Shown piece after piece: positions 36,028 to 49,849 of a DNA stretch of 64,000 nt. Under the pieces are notes generated by a model. It had not been told where the DNA came from, searched no databases, and was given only the letters and a program-made list of their open reading frames with translations. Positions within the stretch are counted from its first letter, which is position 1. The number at the start of each line of letters is the position of its first letter. Position numbers and translations under genes: made by a program. The DNA is from Rhizobium sp. SEMIA4064 (lineage in GTDB: Bacteria > Pseudomonadota > Alphaproteobacteria > Rhizobiales > Rhizobiaceae): NCBI RefSeq assembly GCF_003025035.1, contig NZ_PYJN01000022.1, positions 62,001 to 126,000 on the forward strand, read 5' to 3'.

Positions 36028-37119
36028 ATGATTTCTGCCCTCGAACCTAAGACGATGCGGTCGATGAAACCGGCAATCGGCGACCTTCTCCTTTGGCTCG
36101 CCGCAGCCTTTCCGTTGATGCTGGCAGCTCTGTTGATCACAACCATACTCAGCTTGCAGCCGGCGCATGCCGACGAGACGGCATCCGATAGCTGCGGCGG
36201 CAAGGATCTGATGGCTGAACTGCAGAAAAGCGATCCCGCGAAATATGCCTCGATCCTCGCCGAGGGTGACAAGGTGGCGAACGGCAAAAGCATTTTCTGG
36301 AAGATCGAAAAGCCCGACCTGAAACCCTCCTGGTTGCTCGGCACCATGCATGTCAGCGACGCGCGCGTGCTGACCATGCCGAAGGGTGTAGCCGAAGCAA
36401 GTGCCGCGGCCGATACGATCGTCGTCGAATCCGACGAAATCCTTGACGATAAAAAAGCGGCGGCAGCGCTCTTCGTCAATCCGTCTTTGACCATGCTGAC
36501 CGATGGCTCGACCATCAGCCAGCATCTGTCGCCCGAAGAGAATGCCAAGCTGGAAGCGGGCCTCAAGGAGCGCGGCGTGCCGCTCGCCGCCGTCGCCCAC
36601 ATGCAACCCTGGTTGATCTCAAGTTCCTTCGAAATGACAAGCTGCGAAGTCCGCCGCAAGGCGACCGGCATGAAGTTCCTCGATCAGAAGCTTGCGAGCG
36701 ATGCGGCCGCTAGCGGGAGGCAAGTAAAAGGCCTGGAAACATTGGCCGAACAGGCCAAGGCGATGAGCGATCTGCCGATCGAACTGCACCTGAAATCACT
36801 CATTCAGACGTTGGAACTCGGCGATAAGATCAACGACGTCAACGAAACCATGACCGACCTCTATCTCGCCGGCAATATCGGCGCGATGATACCGATGCTG
36901 AAGAATATCGTGCCGGACCAGAATTTGTCCGAGGATGATACCGCCGCCTTCGAACAACGCATCATCCTCGACCGCAACAAGGTCATGGTGGAGCGCGCCG
37001 CACCCATCCTCGCCAAGGGCAACACCTTCATCGCCGTCGGTGCGCTGCATCTCGTGGGCGATCAGGGTCTTGTCGAGTTGCTGCGCAAGCAGGGTTTCAC
37101 GGTAACGGCGGTGAATTGA
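36028..37119 (+). CDS. TraB/GumN-family protein, membrane-anchored or exported
   Basis: A 363-residue protein. A hydrophobic segment at about 18-47 ending in PAHADE looks like a signal peptide or anchor. The conserved TraB/GumN motifs WLLGTMHVSD (about 105-114) and the C-terminal FIAVGALHLVGDQGLVELLRKQGF are present; these resemble a metal-dependent protease fold (Tiki-like). The biological role is not established. Its end overlaps the convergent downstream gene by 23 bp. Confidence 0.85.
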   Translation: MISALEPKTMRSMKPAIGDLLLWLAAAFPLMLAALLITTILSLQPAHADETASDSCGGKDLMAELQKSDPAKYASILAEGDKVANGKSIFWKIEKPDLKPSWLLGTMHVSDARVLTMPKGVAEASAAADTIVVESDEILDDKKAAAALFVNPSLTMLTDGSTISQHLSPEENAKLEAGLKERGVPLAAVAHMQPWLISSSFEMTSCEVRRKATGMKFLDQKLASDAAASGRQVKGLETLAEQAKAMSDLPIELHLKSLIQTLELGDKINDVNETMTDLYLAGNIGAMIPMLKNIVPDQNLSEDDTAAFEQRIILDRNKVMVERAAPILAKGNTFIAVGALHLVGDQGLVELLRKQGFTVTAVN

Positions 37120-37609
37120 GCGCGCCCATTCGTTTGCCGAAGTCAGTCAGCACTGTCTCGACAATCAACCGATGGAACGGCGTGATCACAGCGATATAGA
37201 TCTGGCCGAGCAAGATTTTCCGTTTCACGAGCGTCGTTATATCGATGAGTCGACGCCCCTGACCATCATCCCGCACATCGATTACGACACGGAAATCAAG
37301 GTGCTTGTCGTCGAAGCCGAGAACAACTTGGTTCTCTGATTTGCTGACGATCGGAAAGAAGCCGATTGTCTCCGACGTATTTAGGGAGTGATGTCCCGTA
37401 GATTTCAGGCCGAAGACACTGACGACCGTATCGCGCAGCTTCAGCAGCGACCGCACCCAAAAAGGAAAATTGCAGAACATCGTGCGCGCTGCAGCGACTG
37501 CCGTAAAATCCGATTCCTGTACCTGTAGCTCGTAACAATCAGCCCAGTCCGCGCCCGGCAATGCGGGATGCGGCATATGTGGTTTAACCATTATGGGCTT
37601 TGTCGGCAT
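37097..37609 (-). CDS. DUF2867-like protein
   Basis: A 170-residue protein with the pattern ALPGADWADCYELQV, SLLKLRDTVVSVFGLK and GFDDKHLDFRVVIDV, resembling DUF2867, a family near NAD(P)H-binding epimerase-like proteins. The assignment is from recall and moderate. The start is uncertain: ATG 37609 is chosen because an upstream extension to 37744 includes GC-rich, non-conserved-looking sequence and a hairpin. The 3' end overlaps the TraB/GumN gene by 23 bp in opposite orientation. Confidence 0.6.
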   Translation of the reverse strand: MPTKPIMVKPHMPHPALPGADWADCYELQVQESDFTAVAAARTMFCNFPFWVRSLLKLRDTVVSVFGLKSTGHHSLNTSETIGFFPIVSKSENQVVLGFDDKHLDFRVVIDVRDDGQGRRLIDITTLVKRKILLGQIYIAVITPFHRLIVETVLTDFGKRMGALNSPPLP

Positions 37610-37710
37610 TTTGTCGTCTGCTGTTTCACTCTCTGCAAAGTAGCATAGCCAACGTATAGCCAGACATACAAACGACGGCTGCGGCAATTCGCTCACGACA
37701 GCCCGCAAAA

Positions 37711-37740
37711 GGAAACGGCGGCCGTCATCACCGCCGCCGC
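37711..37740 (-). terminator. Likely terminator downstream of lpd
   Basis: On the minus strand a GC-rich stem, CGGCGG and CCGCCG with a 9-nt loop, is followed by TTTCCTTTT. It lies about 28 bp after the lpd stop and would end the mdh-suc-lpd transcript. Confidence 0.6.
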
Positions 37741-37767
37741 TCACATCAAAGGATACGTCTCTATAAT

Positions 37768-39174
37768 TTACATATGGATCGGCTTGAAGAAGGTCGCGAG
37801 GGCGGCTTCCTTCACGGCTTCCGACATGGTCGGATGCGCATGGCAGGTGCGGCCGAGATCTTCCGACGAGCCGCCGAATTCCATCAGCACCGCAATCTCG
37901 TGGATCATTTCGCCAGCGCCGAAGCCGACGATGTGGCCGCCGAGAACGCGATCGGTCTCCTTGTCCGCCAGGATCTTGACGAAGCCATCCGTCGCGAGCA
38001 TCGCGCGGGCGCGGCCGTTGGCGGTGAAGGGGAATTTGCCGACCTTGTAGGCAATACCCGCGGCCTTCAGCTCTTCCTCGGTCTTGCCGACGGAGGCGAC
38101 TTCCGGCTGCGTGTAGACCACGCTCGGAATGACGTCGTAGTTCACGTGGCCTGCCTGGCCGGCGAGGATTTCGGCGAGCGCCACGCCCTCGTCTTCCGCC
38201 TTGTGCGCCAGCATCGGGCCCTTCACCACATCGCCGATGGCATAGATGCCGGCGACATTGGTCTTGAAGTGGCCATCAATCTCGACGCGGCCTCTGGCGT
38301 CGAGGGCAACGCCCGCCTCTTCCAGGCCGAGACCGGCCGTGTACGGCTTGCGGCCGGTCGACACCAGCACGACATCGGCATCGAGCACCACCTTGTCGCC
38401 GCCCTTGACCGGCTCGAAGGTGACCTTGGCGCCGTTGCCGACCTTCTCGACGCCGGTGACCTTCGCACTGAGATGGAAGTCGACGCCCTGCTTGGCCAGC
38501 ATACGCTGGAACTGTTTCGAAACTTCGCCGTCCATGCCGCCGAGAATCGTGTCGAGATATTCGACGACGGTGACCTTGGCGCCGAGGCGCGACCAGACCG
38601 AGCCGAGTTCGAGGCCGATGACGCCGCCGCCGACGACGATCATGTTGGCCGGCACCTTGTCGAGCGCGATGCCGCCGGTGGACGAAATGATCACCTTCTC
38701 ATCGATTTCGAGGGACACGCCCGGAATGCCAGCAACGTCGGAGCCGGTGGCGATGACGATGTTCTTGCCTTCGATCTCAGTCACCTTGCCGTCATCGGCC
38801 GTGACGGAAACCTTGCCGGCAGCGACGATCTTACCGGTGCCCTGGAAGGCATCGATCTTGTTCTTCTTGAAGAGGAAGGCGACGCCGTCGACATTCGACT
38901 TCACCGTCGCATCCTTGTGCGCCATCATCTTCGAGAGATTGAGCGTCGGTGCTGCGACTTCGATGCCGAGCGCGTCCATGCCGTGGCCGGCATGATGGAA
39001 CATTTCGGAGGCATGCAGCAGCGCCTTGGACGGGATGCAACCGACATTGAGGCAGGTGCCGCCGAACGTGGTGCGCTTTTCGATGACTGCCACCTTGAGG
39101 CCGAGCTGCGCCGCCTTGATAGCGCAGACGTAGCCGCCAGGGCCGGTTCCGATAATGATCACATCGTAGGACAT
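37768..39174 (-). CDS. lpd: Dihydrolipoamide dehydrogenase (E3)
   Basis: The 468-residue flavoprotein reoxidises the lipoyl groups of 2-oxoglutarate dehydrogenase. FAD motif DVIIIGTGPGGYVCAIKAAQ, redox disulfide GGTCLNVGCIPSK (C41 and C46), NAD-binding VVGGGVIGLELGSVW and the C-terminal His-Glu pair in HAHPTMSEAVKEAAL are all present. It is the last gene of the TCA block on the minus strand, separated from sucB by four smaller genes. Confidence 0.98.
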   Translation of the reverse strand: MSYDVIIIGTGPGGYVCAIKAAQLGLKVAVIEKRTTFGGTCLNVGCIPSKALLHASEMFHHAGHGMDALGIEVAAPTLNLSKMMAHKDATVKSNVDGVAFLFKKNKIDAFQGTGKIVAAGKVSVTADDGKVTEIEGKNIVIATGSDVAGIPGVSLEIDEKVIISSTGGIALDKVPANMIVVGGGVIGLELGSVWSRLGAKVTVVEYLDTILGGMDGEVSKQFQRMLAKQGVDFHLSAKVTGVEKVGNGAKVTFEPVKGGDKVVLDADVVLVSTGRKPYTAGLGLEEAGVALDARGRVEIDGHFKTNVAGIYAIGDVVKGPMLAHKAEDEGVALAEILAGQAGHVNYDVIPSVVYTQPEVASVGKTEEELKAAGIAYKVGKFPFTANGRARAMLATDGFVKILADKETDRVLGGHIVGFGAGEMIHEIAVLMEFGGSSEDLGRTCHAHPTMSEAVKEAALATFFKPIHM

Positions 39175-39203
39175 GGTTTTAATTTCCTTGTTTTGTAACT
39201 CTG

Positions 39204-39842
39204 TTAGTCAGCCGCCCGCGCCAATGCGAGGCGGATGCCGAAGCCGACAAGTGCCGCTCCGGTGATGCGGTTGAACCATTTGCCGCTGGCGATGAAGCGA
39301 TCGCGGACCGGCTTGACGGTAAAGAAGACGGAGACGCCGGCAAACCAGGCGACGAGTGCCGTCGCCATGCCGATGCCATAGGAAAACTGGATCAGCGCCG
39401 GCGTGTCGTGATGCACGAGCGTCGAAAACAGCGACAGGAAAAACAGCACCGGCTTCGGATTGAGCGCGTTGGTGATGAAACCCGTCGCCAGGCAGCGCCA
39501 GATGGAAACCGGCTTGCGGTCCTCCTCGCCGATCTCGATCTCCTTCACCTTGAAGCCCGGCTCCCGGAAGGACTTGATGCCGAGATAGGCGAGATAAAGG
39601 ACGCCGGCCCATTTGATCAGGCTGAAGAGCATCAGCGATTTCGAAACGATGAGGCCGAGACCGAGAATGGTGTAGCTGATATGGAAGAGCAGCGAGAAGC
39701 CCATGCCGAGGCCGGTCATGACGGCCGCGCGGCGGCCATGCACGATGCTCTGGCGCAGGATGACAGCGAAATCAGCGCCCGGTGCGACGATGAAAATCGA
39801 AAACACCGCCATCAGGCCGAGGAATTCCAACACATATTGCAT
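39204..39842 (-). CDS. LysE/RhtB-family exporter
   Basis: A 212-residue inner-membrane protein with six predicted helices. The family start FIVAPGADFAVILRQSI, with the G(A/P)xx(A/G) core, then GMGFSLLFHISYTILGLG and GFITNALNPKPVLFFLSLF, are typical of amino-acid exporters. The ATG at 39842 follows GGAAAGGG; a GTG two codons upstream is less well spaced. It lies between an SDR gene and lpd in the same direction. Substrate is unknown. Confidence 0.85.
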   Translation of the reverse strand: MQYVLEFLGLMAVFSIFIVAPGADFAVILRQSIVHGRRAAVMTGLGMGFSLLFHISYTILGLGLIVSKSLMLFSLIKWAGVLYLAYLGIKSFREPGFKVKEIEIGEEDRKPVSIWRCLATGFITNALNPKPVLFFLSLFSTLVHHDTPALIQFSYGIGMATALVAWFAGVSVFFTVKPVRDRFIASGKWFNRITGAALVGFGIRLALARAAD

Positions 39843-39860
39843 GATCACTGCCCTTTCCGA

Positions 39861-40616
39861 TCAACGACCGCCGCTCACATCGAGGATGGCGCCCGTTATA
39901 TAGGATGCCTGGGGGCCTAAGAGGTAGAGGATGGCGTCAGCGACTTCTTCCGCCGTCCCCGCCCTCTTCATCGGCAGTTGCGGTGCGATCGCGCTCGCCC
40001 GATCGGGCAGGCCAGCAGCCGCGTGAATTTCAGTATCGATGATGCCCGGCCGCACCGCGTTCACCCTTATGCCCTCAGCCGCCACCTCTCGCGCCAGACC
40101 GACCGTGAACGTATCGATCGCACCCTTGGACGCAGCATAATCGACATACTGTCCGCCGCCGCCCAACGTGGCCGCGACGGACGAGAGATTGACGATCGCG
40201 CCTCCCTTGCCGCCATGGCGGGTGGACATGCGGCGGATGGCTTCCGCAGCCGCAAGCAACGAGCCGGTGATGTTGATGCGAAACATCCGGTCGAGCCGCT
40301 CCGGCGTCATCTCATCCAGACGCTGCACACGGTCAACGATGCCGGCATTGTTGACGAGGCCGTCCAGCCGGCCGAAATGCCCGTCGACTACCGAGAAAAT
40401 CGACCGGATGTCCTCGGGCGAGCCGACATCGCCAGCAATCACAATTGCCTCCCCGCCGGCATCGCGGATCGCGGTGACGACCGTGTCCGCGGCCGCTTTG
40501 TTCGAGGCATAATTGACGGCCACGGCCCAGCCTTGCCGGGCAGCGGCAATCGAAACCGCCGCCCCGATGCCGCGGCTGCCGCCGGTGACGAGAAGAACAG
40601 GGGATTTGCCAGTCAT
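39861..40616 (-). CDS. Short-chain dehydrogenase/reductase in the suc operon
   Basis: A 251-residue classical SDR. TGGSRGIG is at about 9-16, NNAG at about 89-92, catalytic Ser followed by YAASK (about 160), and SYITGAILDVSGG near the end, typical of 3-oxoacyl-ACP reductase-like enzymes. Its ATG overlaps the stop of the preceding exported-protein gene as ATGA, so both are translationally coupled. Function in the TCA operon is unknown. Confidence 0.85.
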   Translation of the reverse strand: MTGKSPVLLVTGGSRGIGAAVSIAAARQGWAVAVNYASNKAAADTVVTAIRDAGGEAIVIAGDVGSPEDIRSIFSVVDGHFGRLDGLVNNAGIVDRVQRLDEMTPERLDRMFRINITGSLLAAAEAIRRMSTRHGGKGGAIVNLSSVAATLGGGGQYVDYAASKGAIDTFTVGLAREVAAEGIRVNAVRPGIIDTEIHAAAGLPDRASAIAPQLPMKRAGTAEEVADAILYLLGPQASYITGAILDVSGGR

Positions 40617-41137
40617 TCGCCGCATCCTTTCAAGGTCAGGACATCCCAGGGGGCGACGGTCGCTTTGCCTTTGCCCCAGATGGAGGATTCACGGATCGAA
40701 GGTCCGAGCGCCGGCAGGACCAGCCGCGCTGCGGCGCCAGCACCCTCCGCCGGCAACACGCTGATATTGCCCGTCACGTCGGAGGCATAGATCATGCCCT
40801 GCCAGACGGTGCAGGCACGCAGATCGGCGCCCGTCACATCGCCTTCCGGGCAGTTGAACATGATCAGGCCGTTGGCGCGCAGTTGATCATCCGAGCGCAT
40901 CACCACACCATCCGCCACGATCGGCGTATTGCGCACAGTAAATTTGAACTTGTTGCTGGCGGCCGCCGCCTCGGAACCGATCGGCTCGAAACGCAGCTCG
41001 TAGGCATTCTCCATGTCGCCGTAGACTGCTTTTTCCTGCACGCATTCATCGGCCAGCGCGGGGGTAGGAATGGCTGTAAACGCCATTATCGCCCAATGCA
41101 CGGGGGCCAATCGCGCCATCGCGTGGTTTGTCGGCAT
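40613..41137 (-). CDS. Exported protein of unknown function, 174 residues
   Basis: An N-terminal segment (APVHWAIMAFTAIPTPALA, then DECVQE) looks like a signal peptide cleaved after ALA. The mature part has four cysteines, including DECVQ, FNCPEG and LRACTVW, which suggests disulfides in the periplasm, and ends LTLKGCGE. I do not recognise a domain. It begins three bases after the preceding small exported gene and overlaps the SDR start, so the three are co-transcribed with the suc genes. Confidence 0.75.
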   Translation of the reverse strand: MPTNHAMARLAPVHWAIMAFTAIPTPALADECVQEKAVYGDMENAYELRFEPIGSEAAAASNKFKFTVRNTPIVADGVVMRSDDQLRANGLIMFNCPEGDVTGADLRACTVWQGMIYASDVTGNISVLPAEGAGAAARLVLPALGPSIRESSIWGKGKATVAPWDVLTLKGCGE

Positions 41138-41139
41138 GG

Positions 41140-41382
41140 TTATTTCCCCCTCGGCTTGGCCAGAGGATCGCTGGCGACAATGCGGCCGGAGGTCCGTTCG
41201 ACATCGCCCATATGGAAGACGGTGATCGACCGGGCGGTGGGATCGGCGTCGCTCAGCGACGCCAGATCGAAATTGCCGCTGAGCTTTACTACGTCGAAAT
41301 CATCCGCGACAGCGGAAAATGGCATCCACGCGGCGACGGCGCACAAGAGTCCGCGCATCGTCCGCATGGGCCATTTCGACAT
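41140..41382 (-). CDS. Small exported protein, 80 residues
   Basis: An N-terminal basic region and hydrophobic core (RTMRGLLCAVAAWMPFSAVA) form a typical signal peptide, followed by DDFDVVKLSGNFDLASLSDA. No family is recognised. AGGGAG lies before its ATG at 41382, which is 14 bp after the sucB stop, and its stop is immediately followed by the next exported gene. The tight spacing and signal peptide are the evidence for a real gene. Confidence 0.65.
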   Translation of the reverse strand: MSKWPMRTMRGLLCAVAAWMPFSAVADDFDVVKLSGNFDLASLSDADPTARSITVFHMGDVERTSGRIVASDPLAKPRGK

Positions 41383-41396
41383 GAGCCAGCGCTCCC

Positions 41397-42620
41397 TTAG
41401 AGATCGAGAACCAGACGTTCCGGATCTTCCAGGCTTTCCTTGACGCGCACGAGGAAGGTCACGGCTTCCTTGCCGTCGACGATGCGGTGATCGTAGGAGA
41501 GCGCCAGATACATCATCGGGCGGATAACGACCTGACCGCCGATGGCGACCGGACGTTCCTGGATCTTGTGCATGCCGAGAATGCCCGACTGCGGCGCATT
41601 CAGGATCGGCGAGGACATCAACGAGCCGTAGACACCACCGTTGGAGATGGTGAAGGTGCCGCCCTGCATGTCAGCCATGGAGAGCTGGCCGTCACGGGCT
41701 GCCTTGCCGAGGCGGCCGATTTCCTTCTCGATCTCGGCGATCGACATCTGGTCGGCATCGCGCACGATCGGAACCACGAGACCCTTGTCCGTGCCGACGG
41801 CGACGCCGATGTGGCAGTAGTTCTTGTAGATGATGTCGGTGCCGTCGATCTCGGCGTTGACGGCCGGGAGTTCCTTCAGGGCGTGCGTGACGGCCTTGGT
41901 GAAGAAGCCCATGAAGCCGAGCTTCACGCCATGCTTCTTCTCGAAGATGTCCTTGTACTTATTGCGCAGGTCCATGACGGCCTTCATGTCCACCTCGTTA
42001 TAGGTGGTGAGCATGGCGGCGGTGTTCTGCGCATCCTTGAGGCGCTTGGCGATCGTCTGGCGCAGACGGGTCATCTTGACCCGCTCTTCGCGGCCGGCAT
42101 CTTCGACGGTGGTCGGCGCACGGGCGGCAACCGGAGCAGCCGGTGCGGCGGCAGGCGCCGAGGCAGCCTTGGCAACAGCGGCAATGACATCGCCCTTCAG
42201 GACCTGGCCGCGCTTGCCGCTGCCATCGACCTGATCGGCGGAGAGATTGCTTTCGGCAAGCAGCTTGGCGGCAGCAGGGGCCGGCGGCATGGCGGAAGCC
42301 GATGCGGCAACCGGAGCAGCGGGTGCCGGCGCGGCGGCAGCAGCCGGTGCGGCAGCCTGGGCCGGAGCAGCCGCAGCGCCGTTGCCGGCGCTGATCTGGC
42401 CGAGCAGCGCGCCGAGGCCGACGGTTTCACCGGCCTGGACAACGATTTCGGACAGCGTGCCGGCTGCGGGTGCGGGAACTTCGATCGTCACCTTGTCGGT
42501 TTCCAGCTCGAGAATCGGCTCATCGGCCTTGATGGCATCGCCGACCTTCTTGAACCAGGTGCCGACGGTCGCCTCGCTGACGGATTCGCCGAGGGTAGGA
42601 ACGCGGATTTCAGTGGCCAT
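41397..42620 (-). CDS. sucB: 2-Oxoglutarate dehydrogenase E2, dihydrolipoamide succinyltransferase
   Basis: A 407-residue E2 subunit. The lipoyl domain has its modified lysine in [11 protein letters not shown] (K43). An Ala/Pro-rich linker follows, then the peripheral subunit-binding domain ([26 protein letters not shown], about 115-145), a second linker and the catalytic acyltransferase domain ending with [13 protein letters not shown], which holds the HxxxDG active site. Length and order match SucB. A YciI-like gene separates it from sucA. Confidence 0.98.
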
Positions 42621-42652
42621 TGTTCAGATCCTGATTTTTCGTCGTTATAAAC

Positions 42653-42973
42653 TTAGATGGAATTTCCAGCGGCAGATGGCCGGAGAATGATCGAGGGCAT
42701 TGGCGAGATTTCGATTCGGAAACCGAGCCCGGCGAGAAGGACGGGATCGGCATCACCAAGCGCCTTGGCGGCATCGGCGTCTTCCACGTCGACGACAGCC
42801 ATGCCGAAAGCACCGTCGGCCGCGAAAACCGGACCGACGACTACAGCCGTTCCGGCATCCGCATGTTCGCGCCAATAGGCGGCATGTTGCTGCATGGCGG
42901 CCATCTCCTCCCCTGTGGCGTCATGTGGGAAGCTGGGGCGCGGCGGCATGAGTTTCAGATGAAAATAGGCCAT
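42653..42973 (-). CDS. YciI-like protein between sucA and sucB
   Basis: A 106-residue protein of the YCII-related family: FHLKLMPPRPSFPHDATGEE, HAAYWREHADAGTAVVVGPV and DADPVLLAGLGFRIEISPM follow the family's ferredoxin-like pattern. YciI-domain proteins are small dimers with a His-Asp pair and are mostly of unknown function. It lies 17 bp after the sucA stop and 32 bp before sucB, on the same strand, so it is part of the suc operon. Confidence 0.8.
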   Translation of the reverse strand: MAYFHLKLMPPRPSFPHDATGEEMAAMQQHAAYWREHADAGTAVVVGPVFAADGAFGMAVVDVEDADAAKALGDADPVLLAGLGFRIEISPMPSIILRPSAAGNSI

Positions 42974-42990
42974 CGCGCACCCCTATCGCT

Positions 42991-45975
42991 TTAACCGCCC
43001 AGCGCATCCTCAAGGAATGCAGCGAGCTGCGCCAGATGCTTGGACATCAGGCCCGTCGCCGGAGAGGCGGCGGCCGGACGGCCGGTGTAGCGAACCCGCT
43101 GGTACTTGGCATCGATATGGGCAAGCACCCATTCCAGATAAGGATCGATGAAGGACCATGCGCCCATGTTCTTCGGCTCTTCCTGGCACCAGACCATCTC
43201 CGCATTGCGGAAGCGGCTGAGCTCGTTGATGAGCGCCTTGGCCGGGAACGGATAGAGCTGTTCGATACGCAGCAGGTAGATATCGTCGATGCCGCGCTTC
43301 TCGCGCTCTTCCAGGAGATCGTAATAGACCTTGCCCGAGCAGATGACGACGCGACGGATCTTGTTGTCCTTCTGCAGCTTGATCGGGCCGTCCTTGATGA
43401 CCTCCGCATCGTCCCAGAGCAGGCGATGGAACGAGGTTTCCCCCGCCATCTCCGCCAGGCTCGACACTGCACGCTTGTGACGCAGCAGCGACTTCGGCGT
43501 CATCAGAATGAGCGGCTTGCGGAAATCGCGCTTCAACTGACGGCGCAGGATGTGGAAGTAGTTCGCCGGCGTGGTGACATTGGCGACCTGCATGTTGTCT
43601 TCGGCACAGAGCTGCAGATAACGCTCGAGACGGGCCGAGGAGTGTTCCGGACCTTGACCTTCATAGCCGTGCGGCAGCAGGCAGACGAGGCCGGACATGC
43701 GCAGCCACTTGCGTTCGCCCGACGAGATGAACTGGTCGAAGATGACCTGCGCACCGTTGGCGAAGTCGCCGAACTGCGCTTCCCAAAGCGTCAACGCATT
43801 CGGACGAGCCAGCGAATAGCCGTATTCGAAGCCGAGAACCGCCTCTTCCGACAGCATCGAGTTGATGACTTCGTAGCGGGCCTGGGTCGGCGACAGGTTG
43901 GCGAGCGGGATGTAGCGCTCTTCGGTTTCCTGATCGTAGAGAACCGAATGACGCTGCGAGAAGGTGCCGCGCTCGCAATCCTGACCGGACAGGCGGATCT
44001 TGTGGCCTTCGACCACCAGCGAGCCGAAAGCCAGCGCTTCCGCCATTGCCCAGTCGATGCCTTCACCTGTCTGGACCATGCCGGCGCGGTTTTCCATGAA
44101 GCGCTGGATGGTGCGATGCGCATGGAAGCCCGCCGGGATTTCCGACAGCTTGCGGCCGATATCCTTCAGGCTCTTCATCGGCACGGCAGTCTTGCCGCGA
44201 CGCTGCTCGTCGGCATTGTCGGCCGTATGCAAACCCGACCACTCGCCGTCCAGCCAGTCGGCCTTGTTCGGCTTGTAGGATTGGCCAGCCTCGAACTCCT
44301 GTTCGAGATGGGCGCGCCAGTCGGCCTTCATCTTCTCGACTTCGCCTTCGGTCAACACGCCTTCGCCGACCAGCCGCTCGGAATAGAGCTGCAGCACCGT
44401 CTTGTGGGCGCGAATGACCTTGTACATCTTCGGCTGCGTGAAGGACGGCTCGTCGCCTTCATTGTGGCCGTAGCGGCGGTAGCAGAACATGTCGATCACG
44501 ACCGGCTTGTGGAACTTCATCCGGAATTCGGTCGCGATCTTCGCGGCATAGACGACCGCTTCCGGATCGTCGCCGTTGACGTGGAAGATCGGCGCTTCGA
44601 TCATCTTGGCAACGTCGGACGGATAGGGCGACGAACGCGAGAAGGCTGGATTGGTGGTGAAGCCGATCTGGTTGTTGATGATGACGTGCATCGTGCCGGC
44701 GACGCGGTGGCCGCGCAGACCGGAAAGGCCGAGGATTTCAGCCACGACGCCCTGACCGGCGAAAGCGGCATCGCCATGGATCAGCAGCGGCACGACCTTG
44801 GCGCGTTCGGAGAGCGGAATGATATCGCCATCCCAGAGGGTGGCGCTCATATCCTGCTTGGCGCGGACCTTGCCCATGACGACAGGGTTGACGATTTCCA
44901 GATGCGACGGATTGGCCGTCAGCGAAACGTGCACCTTGGTGCCGTCGAAATCGCGGTCCGAGGAAGCGCCAAGGTGGTACTTGACGTCGCCCGAGCCTTC
45001 GACTTCGTCCGGCGCGTAGGAGCCGCCCTTGAACTCGTGGAAGATTGCACGATGCGGCTTGGCCATGACCTGCGAAAGCACGTTCAGACGGCCGCGATGG
45101 GCCATACCAAACACGGCTTCCTTGAGTCCAAGCTGGCTACCGCTCTTGAGAATCTGCTCCAGCGCCGGGATGAGCGATTCACCGCCATCGAGGCCGAAAC
45201 GCTTGGTGCCCTTGAACTTGACGTCGAGGAACTGCTCGTAGCCTTCGGATTCGATCACCTTCTGCAGGATCGCCTTTTTGCGGTCCGCGCTGAAGTTGAT
45301 GCCCTTGTTGACGCCCTCGATGCGTTCCTGAATCCAGGCCTTCTCTTCCGGATTGGAGATATGCATGAATTCGACGCCGAGCGTCGAACAATAGGTGCGC
45401 TCGAGGATTTCCATCATCTCGCGCACGCTTGCATATTCAAGGCCGAGCACGTTGTCGATGAAGATCTTACGGTCGAGGTCGGCCTCGGTGAAGCCATAAG
45501 CTTCCGGCGACAGCTCCTTGTAGTCTTCCACGGCGGCAGCGATGCCGAGCGGGTCGAGCTTGGCGTGCAGGTGGCCGCGCATGCGATAGGCGCGGATCAT
45601 CATGATGGCGCGGACGGAATCGCGCGTCGCCTGCAGGACGTCGGCGGTATCGGTCGGCTTGCCGGCGGCTTCGGCCTTGGCCTTCACCTTGGTCTCGATG
45701 ACCTTCTCGACGATGCCCCAGTTGCCGTCGAGTGCGGAAACGAGTTCGCCGTTTGCCTGGATCGGCCAGTTCTTGCGCTGCCAGGAGGCGCCCTTGGCCG
45801 CCTTCTTCACATCGTCGGGACTGTCTTCCAGTGCCTTGAAGAACGACTGCCACTCGTCGGCCACCGACGATGGGTCTTCCTCGTAGCGCGCATAAAGCTG
45901 CTCGATATAAGCAGCGTTGGCGCCGTCCAGGAACGAGGTGATTTGAAATTGCTCGTTGGCTTCTTGCCTTGCCAT
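42991..45975 (-). CDS. sucA: 2-Oxoglutarate dehydrogenase E1
   Basis: The 994-residue thiamine-diphosphate subunit decarboxylates 2-oxoglutarate and transfers succinyl to SucB. The N-terminal FLDGANAAYIEQLYARYEEDP, the ThDP region MAHRGRLNVLSQVM, HGDAAFAGQGVVAEIL and GDDPEAVVYAAKIA, and the C-terminal LPHGYEGQGPEHSSARLERYLQL are all typical. The ATG at 45975 has no ribosome site next to it; GGGAGG lies 25 bases upstream beyond a hairpin. Confidence 0.98.
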   Translation of the reverse strand: MARQEANEQFQITSFLDGANAAYIEQLYARYEEDPSSVADEWQSFFKALEDSPDDVKKAAKGASWQRKNWPIQANGELVSALDGNWGIVEKVIETKVKAKAEAAGKPTDTADVLQATRDSVRAIMMIRAYRMRGHLHAKLDPLGIAAAVEDYKELSPEAYGFTEADLDRKIFIDNVLGLEYASVREMMEILERTYCSTLGVEFMHISNPEEKAWIQERIEGVNKGINFSADRKKAILQKVIESEGYEQFLDVKFKGTKRFGLDGGESLIPALEQILKSGSQLGLKEAVFGMAHRGRLNVLSQVMAKPHRAIFHEFKGGSYAPDEVEGSGDVKYHLGASSDRDFDGTKVHVSLTANPSHLEIVNPVVMGKVRAKQDMSATLWDGDIIPLSERAKVVPLLIHGDAAFAGQGVVAEILGLSGLRGHRVAGTMHVIINNQIGFTTNPAFSRSSPYPSDVAKMIEAPIFHVNGDDPEAVVYAAKIATEFRMKFHKPVVIDMFCYRRYGHNEGDEPSFTQPKMYKVIRAHKTVLQLYSERLVGEGVLTEGEVEKMKADWRAHLEQEFEAGQSYKPNKADWLDGEWSGLHTADNADEQRRGKTAVPMKSLKDIGRKLSEIPAGFHAHRTIQRFMENRAGMVQTGEGIDWAMAEALAFGSLVVEGHKIRLSGQDCERGTFSQRHSVLYDQETEERYIPLANLSPTQARYEVINSMLSEEAVLGFEYGYSLARPNALTLWEAQFGDFANGAQVIFDQFISSGERKWLRMSGLVCLLPHGYEGQGPEHSSARLERYLQLCAEDNMQVANVTTPANYFHILRRQLKRDFRKPLILMTPKSLLRHKRAVSSLAEMAGETSFHRLLWDDAEVIKDGPIKLQKDNKIRRVVICSGKVYYDLLEEREKRGIDDIYLLRIEQLYPFPAKALINELSRFRNAEMVWCQEEPKNMGAWSFIDPYLEWVLAHIDAKYQRVRYTGRPAAASPATGLMSKHLAQLAAFLEDALGG

Positions 45976-46151: not shown

Positions 46152-47054
46152 TCAGCCCTTCAGGACTTCCACAAGCGTCTTGCCGAGACGTGCCGGCGAA
46201 GGCGACACGCGAATGCCTGCCGCTTCCATCGCTGCAATCTTGTCTTCCGCGCCGCCCTTGCCGCCGGAAATCACGGCGCCAGCATGGCCCATGGTGCGGC
46301 CGGGAGGTGCCGTGCGGCCGGCGATGAAGCCGACCATCGGCTTCTTGCGGCCCTTCTTGGCTTCGTCCTTGAGGAACTGCGCGGCTTCTTCTTCAGCCGA
46401 ACCGCCGATTTCGCCTATCATGATGATCGACTTCGTTTCGTCGTCGGCGAGGAACATTTCCAGGACGTCGATGAATTCGGTGCCCTTGACCGGGTCGCCG
46501 CCGATGCCGACAGCCGTCGTCTGGCCGAGGCCTTCATTGGTGGTCTGGAACACGGCTTCATAGGTCAGCGTGCCGGAACGCGAGAGAACACCGACGGAGC
46601 CCTTCTTGAAGATGGAGCCCGGCATGATGCCGATCTTGCATTCGTTCGGGGTGAGCACGCCCGGGCAGTTCGGCCCGATCAAGCGCGACTTCGACTTCTG
46701 GAGGCGATCCTTGACCTTGACCATGTCGGCAACCGGAATGCCTTCCGTGATGCAGACGATCAGCGGGATTTCAGCTTCGATCGCTTCGAGGATCGCAGCA
46801 GCAGCGCCGGCCGGCGGAACGTAGATGACTGAGGCGTTGGCGCCGGTGGCGTCCTTGCCTTCGGCGACGGACTTGAAGATCGGCAGCTTTTCGCCGTCCT
46901 TGCCGGTCCAGGTTTCACCACCCTTGGAGGGGTGGATACCGCCGACCATCTTCGTGCCGTGATAGGCAAGCGCCTGTTCGGTGTGGAAGGTACCGGTCTT
47001 GCCGGTCAGGCCCTGAACCAGAACCTTGGTGTCTTTGTTGATGAGAATAGACAT
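46152..47054 (-). CDS. sucD: Succinyl-CoA ligase alpha subunit
   Basis: The 300-residue alpha subunit binds CoA and carries the phosphohistidine. The CoA-binding N-terminus [38 protein letters not shown] and the active-site histidine in [21 protein letters not shown] (about residue 250) are intact. It follows sucC, from which it is separated by a DUF1579-like gene; this order is unusual compared with the adjacent sucC-sucD of most bacteria. Confidence 0.98.

Positions 47055-47563: not shown

Positions 47564-48757
<1,194 letters not shown>

Positions 48758-48784: not shown

Positions 48785-49849
<1,065 letters not shown>

Follow-up and report, generated by a model that had tools for sequence, protein, structure and literature searches.

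The locus considered here raises a simple question, namely why four accessory genes lie between sucB and lpd in a Rhizobium genome and whether they have anything to do with the 2-oxoglutarate dehydrogenase genes that enclose them. In the window, that is, the whole stretch of 64,000 nucleotides that was analysed, the four open reading frames are all present on the minus strand (Table 1), as the initial annotation had reported. The reading favoured here, to which a probability of about 0.6 is given, is that they form a lineage-specific accessory cassette in the 2-oxoglutarate dehydrogenase operon of Rhizobiaceae, most likely co-transcribed with it, in which a DUF4241 gene has been cut to a stub and which may have a role in metabolite overflow.

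Table 1. Features of the locus in the window (positions in nucleotides of the window).
Feature	Coordinates	Strand	Remark
mdh	48785-49747	-	PF00056/PF02866 above cut-off
sucC	47564-48757	-	PF08442/PF00549 above cut-off
DUF1579 gene, 163 aa	47067-47558	-	PF07617, E 5.6e-12
sucD	46152-47054	-	PF00549/PF02629 above cut-off
sucA (2-oxoglutarate dehydrogenase E1)	42991-45975	-	PF16870 and PF00676 above cut-off
YciI-like gene, sucA/sucB interval	42653-42973	-	PF03795, 42.5 bits vs cut-off 24
sucB (2-oxoglutarate dehydrogenase E2)	41397-42620	-	NF004309 and TIGR01347 above cut-off
80-aa ORF	41140-41382	-	N-terminal stub of a secreted DUF4241 protein
174-aa exported protein ORF	40613-41137	-	family without prior description
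SDR oxidoreductase, classical	39861-40625	-	alternative start 40616
LysE/RhtB-type exporter	39204-39848	-	GTG start; PF01810
lpd (dihydrolipoyl dehydrogenase)	37768-39174	-	TIGR01350, 585.1 bits vs cut-off 408.8
DUF2867 protein gene, directly after lpd	37097-37744	-	PF11066

Along the minus strand the genes follow each other in the order mdh, sucC, DUF1579, sucD, sucA, YciI-like, sucB, 80-aa ORF, 174-aa ORF, SDR, LysE, and lpd. The DUF1579 gene between sucC and sucD adds another accessory insertion to this operon, and the DUF2867 gene is found near the locus in only some relatives.

The spacing between the genes is short. A gap of 14 nt separates sucB from the 80-aa ORF, 2 nt (TAA CC ATG) the 80-aa from the 174-aa ORF, 12 nt the SDR from the LysE gene, and 29 nt the LysE gene from lpd. 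The 174-aa ORF overlaps the SDR gene by 13 nt with the SDR start at 40625 and by 4 nt (ATGA) with the start at 40616; among 34 same-genus loci, the ATGA-type start was chosen by script in 8. ATGA overlaps and short spacers had been taken by the initial annotation as the sign of an operon, with the SDR translationally coupled to the 174-aa gene. The spacers are indeed short or overlapping and the overlap at the SDR is real, but the junction between the 80-aa and 174-aa ORFs has no ATGA, and the SDR has it only with the alternative start. A scan of positions 37000-43200 on the coding strand for sigma-70 and terminator consensus sequences, a poor guide in rhizobia, found no promoter- or terminator-like site from sucB to lpd. 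Short spacers, conserved order (see below), and the lack of a promoter or terminator match on the coding strand argue that the accessory genes are very probably co-transcribed with the 2-oxoglutarate dehydrogenase operon, and in this respect the earlier assignment was probably right. In the accessible part of the respective sources, PckR is a predicted activator of mdh-sucCDAB in Rhizobiales (PMC4052901), sucA and sucB mutants of R. leguminosarum are growth-impaired (PMC5118466), and the exoproteome of R. etli includes SucA, SucB, and LpdA (PMC9855851). A term search of the accessible text of the latter paper found none of the accessory cassette genes.

The initial annotation described the first two ORFs as tiny exported proteins. 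This description survives for the 174-aa protein, which belongs to an exported family, and is wrong for the 80-aa ORF, which is a truncated form of a 249-aa DUF4241 precursor. The 80-aa ORF does have a signal-peptide-like N-terminus, as read directly from the sequence. When it was searched against 61 genomes (the window's own, 36 of the same genus, and 24 of other families), 27 gave a match: the window's, 25 of the same genus, and one of another family, which is marginal (G051, E 0.0098). In the 25 same-genus genomes, the end of the match is separated from the 174-aa match by at least about 500 bp, with the exception of G013 (R. leucaenae), in which the distance is 5 nt, like that of the window. 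Over residues 1-77, the 80-aa ORF shares 88% identity with the first part of an ORF in G018 and 84% with that of an ORF in G036. In G018 the match is the beginning of a 249-aa ORF that carries PF14025 (DUF4241) at residues 61-230 (E 3.1e-44, 151.8 bits vs a gathering threshold of 27). The 80-aa ORF itself gave no family in a Pfam scan, PF14025 included, because the domain sits in the missing part; the window ORF keeps only about 16 residues of it.

DNA alignment places the loss precisely. Window and G013 lack the stretch from about codon 75 to the last few codons, and the distance from start codon to start codon of the 174-aa gene is 245 nt in the stub vs 752 nt, which makes the net deletion 507 nt, exactly 169 codons. 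With whole codons lost, the old stop position two bases ahead of the next ATG has been kept. The stub thus consists of the signal peptide and the first 50 or so mature residues, with the final few residues and the stop from the old 3′ end. In the same genus, 34 loci carry the 174-aa gene, that of the window among them; the DUF4241 gene is complete (245-249 aa) in 24 of these, is a stub in two (window and G013), and was not detected in eight. Of the named loci, which comprise the 80 best among 232 relatives, 60 also have a DUF4241 gene; 59 of these are full length and one, in Rhizobium leucaenae USDA 9039, is a stub of 80 aa. The G-numbered and named sets share genomes, and their counts are not additive. 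In a tree built from sucB, SDR, lpd, and the 174-aa gene (37 rows), window and R. leucaenae are sisters (SH-aLRT 99), and G018, with its full gene, adjoins them. This topology points to a single event; on the alignment and the tree together, the in-frame deletion of 507 bp is shown to have arisen once, in the common ancestor of the window strain and R. leucaenae.

With a completeness of 82%, the draft genome of the window strain would leave room for an artefact of assembly or sequencing; this is hardly credible, as the identical junction, with later substitutions, occurs in a second species (R. leucaenae NZ_AUFB01000004.1). The anatomy of the locus and the truncation of the DUF4241 gene can therefore be regarded as practically certain. 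The idea that the 80-aa and 174-aa ORFs are one split gene was also discarded, as each aligns to its own neighbouring gene in relatives. Neither the window genome, at its 82% completeness, nor G013 yielded a further PF14025 gene; in the same kind of genome search, G018 and G036 were positive and 14 control genomes were negative. Pfam lists DUF4241 as a domain of unknown function, and no paper was found for it by name in the open literature. The predicted model of the DUF4241 protein, with a mean pLDDT of 49.6, is too poor for a structural comparison, and its sequence gave chance-level rows only against the PDB (E 0.025). Without the DUF4241 domain, the stub probably has no DUF4241 function, and the label of a small exported protein, likely an annotation error, should be corrected to that of a truncated DUF4241 gene.

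Whether the stub is still of use can be judged from its substitutions. Between window and R. leucaenae it has 13 non-synonymous and 9 synonymous changes, with a dN/dS of 0.43 over 75 codons and of 0.49 without the signal peptide. In the same pair, the ratio is 12:34 in the 174-aa gene and 14:58 in the SDR, from both of which the stub differs (Fisher P 0.015 and 0.0008, respectively), and two intact DUF4241 pairs show no such gap relative to their own 174-aa gene (P 0.52 and 0.56). The stub does not differ significantly (P 0.14) from the same codons of four intact pairs (26.5:42.5, rounded); these four have a dN/dS of 0.15-0.24, rising to as much as 0.32 without the signal peptide. The stub may have found a new use after the deletion as a functional small exported peptide. 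The deletion is in frame, and the open frame, signal peptide, and stop are retained in two species; yet an in-frame result has a one-in-three chance for any deletion, and the dN/dS of the stub pair (0.43-0.49) exceeds both that of five intact pairs over the same codons (0.10-0.32) and that of four neighbouring genes of the stub pair (0.03-0.16), although the counts are small. Such a peptide is accordingly considered improbable. The figures weakly hint at relaxed constraint, and the stub is probably a decaying remnant. Since neither the stop nor the two bases that separate it from the next start have been lost, translational coupling is possible, and the stub may pass ribosomes to the 174-aa gene.

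The 174-aa protein is of a different kind. The window protein matched no Pfam or NCBIfam family. A Pfam scan of 29 members of its family gave up to three hits at E 0.048 to one unlikely family, and among 31 diverse members one was hit at E 0.023 (Pfam) and one at 0.018-0.1 (NCBIfam); all of these were taken as chance. Against the PDB, the family gave by sequence only chance-level rows (E 0.36-0.44). As judged from these searches, the family has no earlier description and no convincing Pfam, NCBIfam, or PDB relative. A signal-peptide test, crude in that it combines hydropathy with the -3/-1 positions, was positive in 69 of 69 members, and 31 diverse members all share four cysteines (Cys32, Cys96, Cys109, and Cys172). 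From these features, the protein would be periplasmic and held by two disulphides, for which the order of the strands suggests the pairs Cys32-Cys172 and Cys96-Cys109. One in-frame TGA was observed within the matched stretch of the homologs at L128, L131, and L132 (G277, G294, and G215).

The AlphaFold2 model of the 174-aa protein has a mean pLDDT of 80, with values below 50 only at residues 3-28, and the mature part consists mostly of strands. Foldseek found no match at E <= 0.001 for this model (best E 0.28). After structural realignment, avidin-like proteins and designed small barrels rank at the top, with Z up to 8.1; this value belongs to bradavidin2 (4ggr), with an rmsd of 4.1 over 99 residues. 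With a Foldseek E of 0.28 and an identity of 9-10%, such a Z may mean only a common arrangement. The model suggests that the mature domain is probably a small beta-barrel. A bolder picture would be that of a disulphide-braced periplasmic barrel that binds a small molecule, nearly specific to Rhizobiaceae and with its synthesis tied to that of 2-oxoglutarate dehydrogenase, through which the envelope, together with LysE and SDR, reads or handles a metabolite of TCA flux; it is speculative and rather unlikely.

The position of the 174-aa gene is constant in the loci examined. The gene is present in 33 of 36 same-genus genomes besides the window's, and in all 34 same-genus loci, window included, the order is sucB-...-174aa-SDR-...-lpd. 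All 80 named loci, the best among 232 relatives, keep this order, and each of 40 other-genus loci (34 genera), which were picked from the 131 genomes with a 174-aa homolog, has the gene in the sucB-lpd interval. Absence or scattering in close relatives, named by the initial annotation as the outcome that would speak against it, is thus not what is seen, and its expectation of synteny is borne out at each of these levels. Within the family (GTDB, Rhizobiaceae), homologs occur in 131 of 247 genomes, the window's own included, and in 59 of 109 genera; each of the 131 has a single match, at the sucB-lpd locus in all examined. A single-sequence search found none in 24 genomes of other families. An order-wide profile search of 249 genomes found 10 with a match and, among the matches listed, one (G411) outside the family. 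In G483, a second partial match (G483:C3:149714-149896, profile positions 108-168) lies on another contig than the 174-aa gene itself (L271, G483:C6), the only second copy seen. Genome G003 is not classifiable, as its sucB runs off the contig. An exported protein without a known domain has therefore been kept between sucB and lpd across the sampled genera, in an operon relevant for growth, and the fixation of this family in the 2-oxoglutarate dehydrogenase operon is the lasting point of the analysis.

Around the window, its stable companion is the SDR. This enzyme is a classical SDR by family score (PF13561, E 1.2e-55; PF00106, E 4e-49) and by the motifs TGGSRGIG, NNAG, and YAASK. No equivalog model reached its curated cut-off among the best 25 of 231 matches; NF004777 (PRK06123), for example, gave 340.5 bits and lies below its cut-off of 383. 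Against the PDB, the SDR matches 4e3z (E 1.2e-109), a "putative" oxidoreductase that is 98.8% identical over 248 residues to the locus SDR of R. croatiense (L196). The SDR accompanies the 174-aa gene in each of the 34 same-genus loci that have the latter and also occurs in two genomes without it (G030 and G035); among other-genus loci, it was detected in 27 of 40. The SDR of the sucB-lpd locus in S. meliloti is presumably SMc02486. This protein is considered to have a role in the TCA cycle, according to the accessible text of PMC6558427, which cites Jacob et al. 2008.

The LysE exporter is less constant. The window protein belongs to the LysE/RhtB exporters by PF01810 (120.4 bits vs a cut-off of 25.6) and falls short of TIGR00949 (153.5 vs 183.95 bits); a sequence search against the PDB gave nothing up to E 1. 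Its gene stands after the SDR in the window and close relatives and ahead of the 174-aa gene in 10 of the 80 named loci and, for other genera, in 20 of the 23 loci whose interval contains a LysE match. It was not found in 9 of the 34 same-genus loci, and for this reason the export of TCA-linked amino acids, which the initial annotation had suggested beside a relation to envelope state, cannot explain the whole cassette. Six of the 80 named loci (L193, L194, L196, L209, L211, and L217) have a C-terminal lysE match only, and degraded lysE remnants were seen in the SDR-lpd gap of L082 and L107. From these sequences, the exporter seems to have been eroded in several Rhizobium lineages. In a LysE tree, 49 of the 53 rows from the locus group in a single clade, from which the 14 further LysE rows of the window genome are separate; the tree is weak, with an SH-aLRT of 88 for the clade, long branches around it, and two of the 14 own rows badly cut (30 and 132 aa). 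Outside the clade are L252, beside a very long row, and L235 and L250, which are 25-29% identical to the window LysE and group with the other LysE genes of the genome; the LysE of L244 lies outside the sucB-lpd interval. An origin of the locus LysEs in many separate recruitments was discarded in view of the single clade; recruitment more than once is possible.

A MAPEG gene (in L087, PF01124, 79 bits vs 23.4) stands on the sucB side in many strains and occurs in 19 of 40 other-genus loci. The same families appear where the 174-aa gene is missing. In 19 family genomes without it, taken from 20 listed (of 116), the stretch adjoining sucB held an SDR in 10, MAPEG in nine, LysE in four, and a DUF4241-like match in two, one of which (L289) was confirmed as PF14025 by score. 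The stretches of L276 and L283 end at the contig end, and L277 and L289 show no lpd.

Near the window, the stable members of the cassette are thus the 174-aa protein and the SDR; LysE, DUF4241, and MAPEG come and go in the same slot. Expression of the operon would follow carbon flux, and the cassette would be made alongside 2-oxoglutarate dehydrogenase. LysE might then export an amino acid derived from TCA intermediates, the SDR might recycle a TCA-linked carbonyl or hydroxy compound, and the 174-aa protein would act outside the inner membrane, so that side products or overflow could be dealt with at high 2-oxoglutarate flux. This overflow reading, drawn from family names and membership, is tentative and has clearly less than an even chance. 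As LysE was not found in part of the same-genus loci, nor the SDR in 13 of the 40 loci from other genera, no single pathway requires every member of the cassette.

The main rival explanation is that a strongly expressed operon is simply a tolerated landing place, in which genes stay by chromosomal inertia and without any link to 2-oxoglutarate. The patchy gene content fits this: DUF4241, MAPEG, LysE, and YciI vary among strains, lysE is reduced to its C-terminal part in the six loci given above, L279 has none of the set and other ORFs in the interval, and in G483 a second, partial 174-aa-like match lies elsewhere. Chance settlement accounts less well for the recurrence of the same few families, even in genomes that lack the 174-aa gene, for the single clade of most locus LysEs, and for the 174-aa gene, which has a single match per genome, at this locus in every one examined. 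Mere hitchhiking is on balance possible, short of probable. A search of the open literature under RL4429-RL4432, RHE_CH03870-03875, and Atu2633-2636 returned no paper, and under SMc02484-SMc02486 one; these tags are presumed ones, and the silence means little. Taken as an accessory cassette of the 2-oxoglutarate dehydrogenase operon, these genes provide, for rhizobia, a clear set of candidates for a role in metabolite overflow or in the envelope.

The interval between lysE and lpd deserves a last remark. R. leucaenae (G013) and the genome G021 share there an intergenic palindromic repeat (L066 3418-3564 and L071 9285-9430), presumably similar to the RIME-type rhizobial repeats, and the window has just 29 nt at this site. 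The palindromic repeat is found again in L082, after the degraded lysE.
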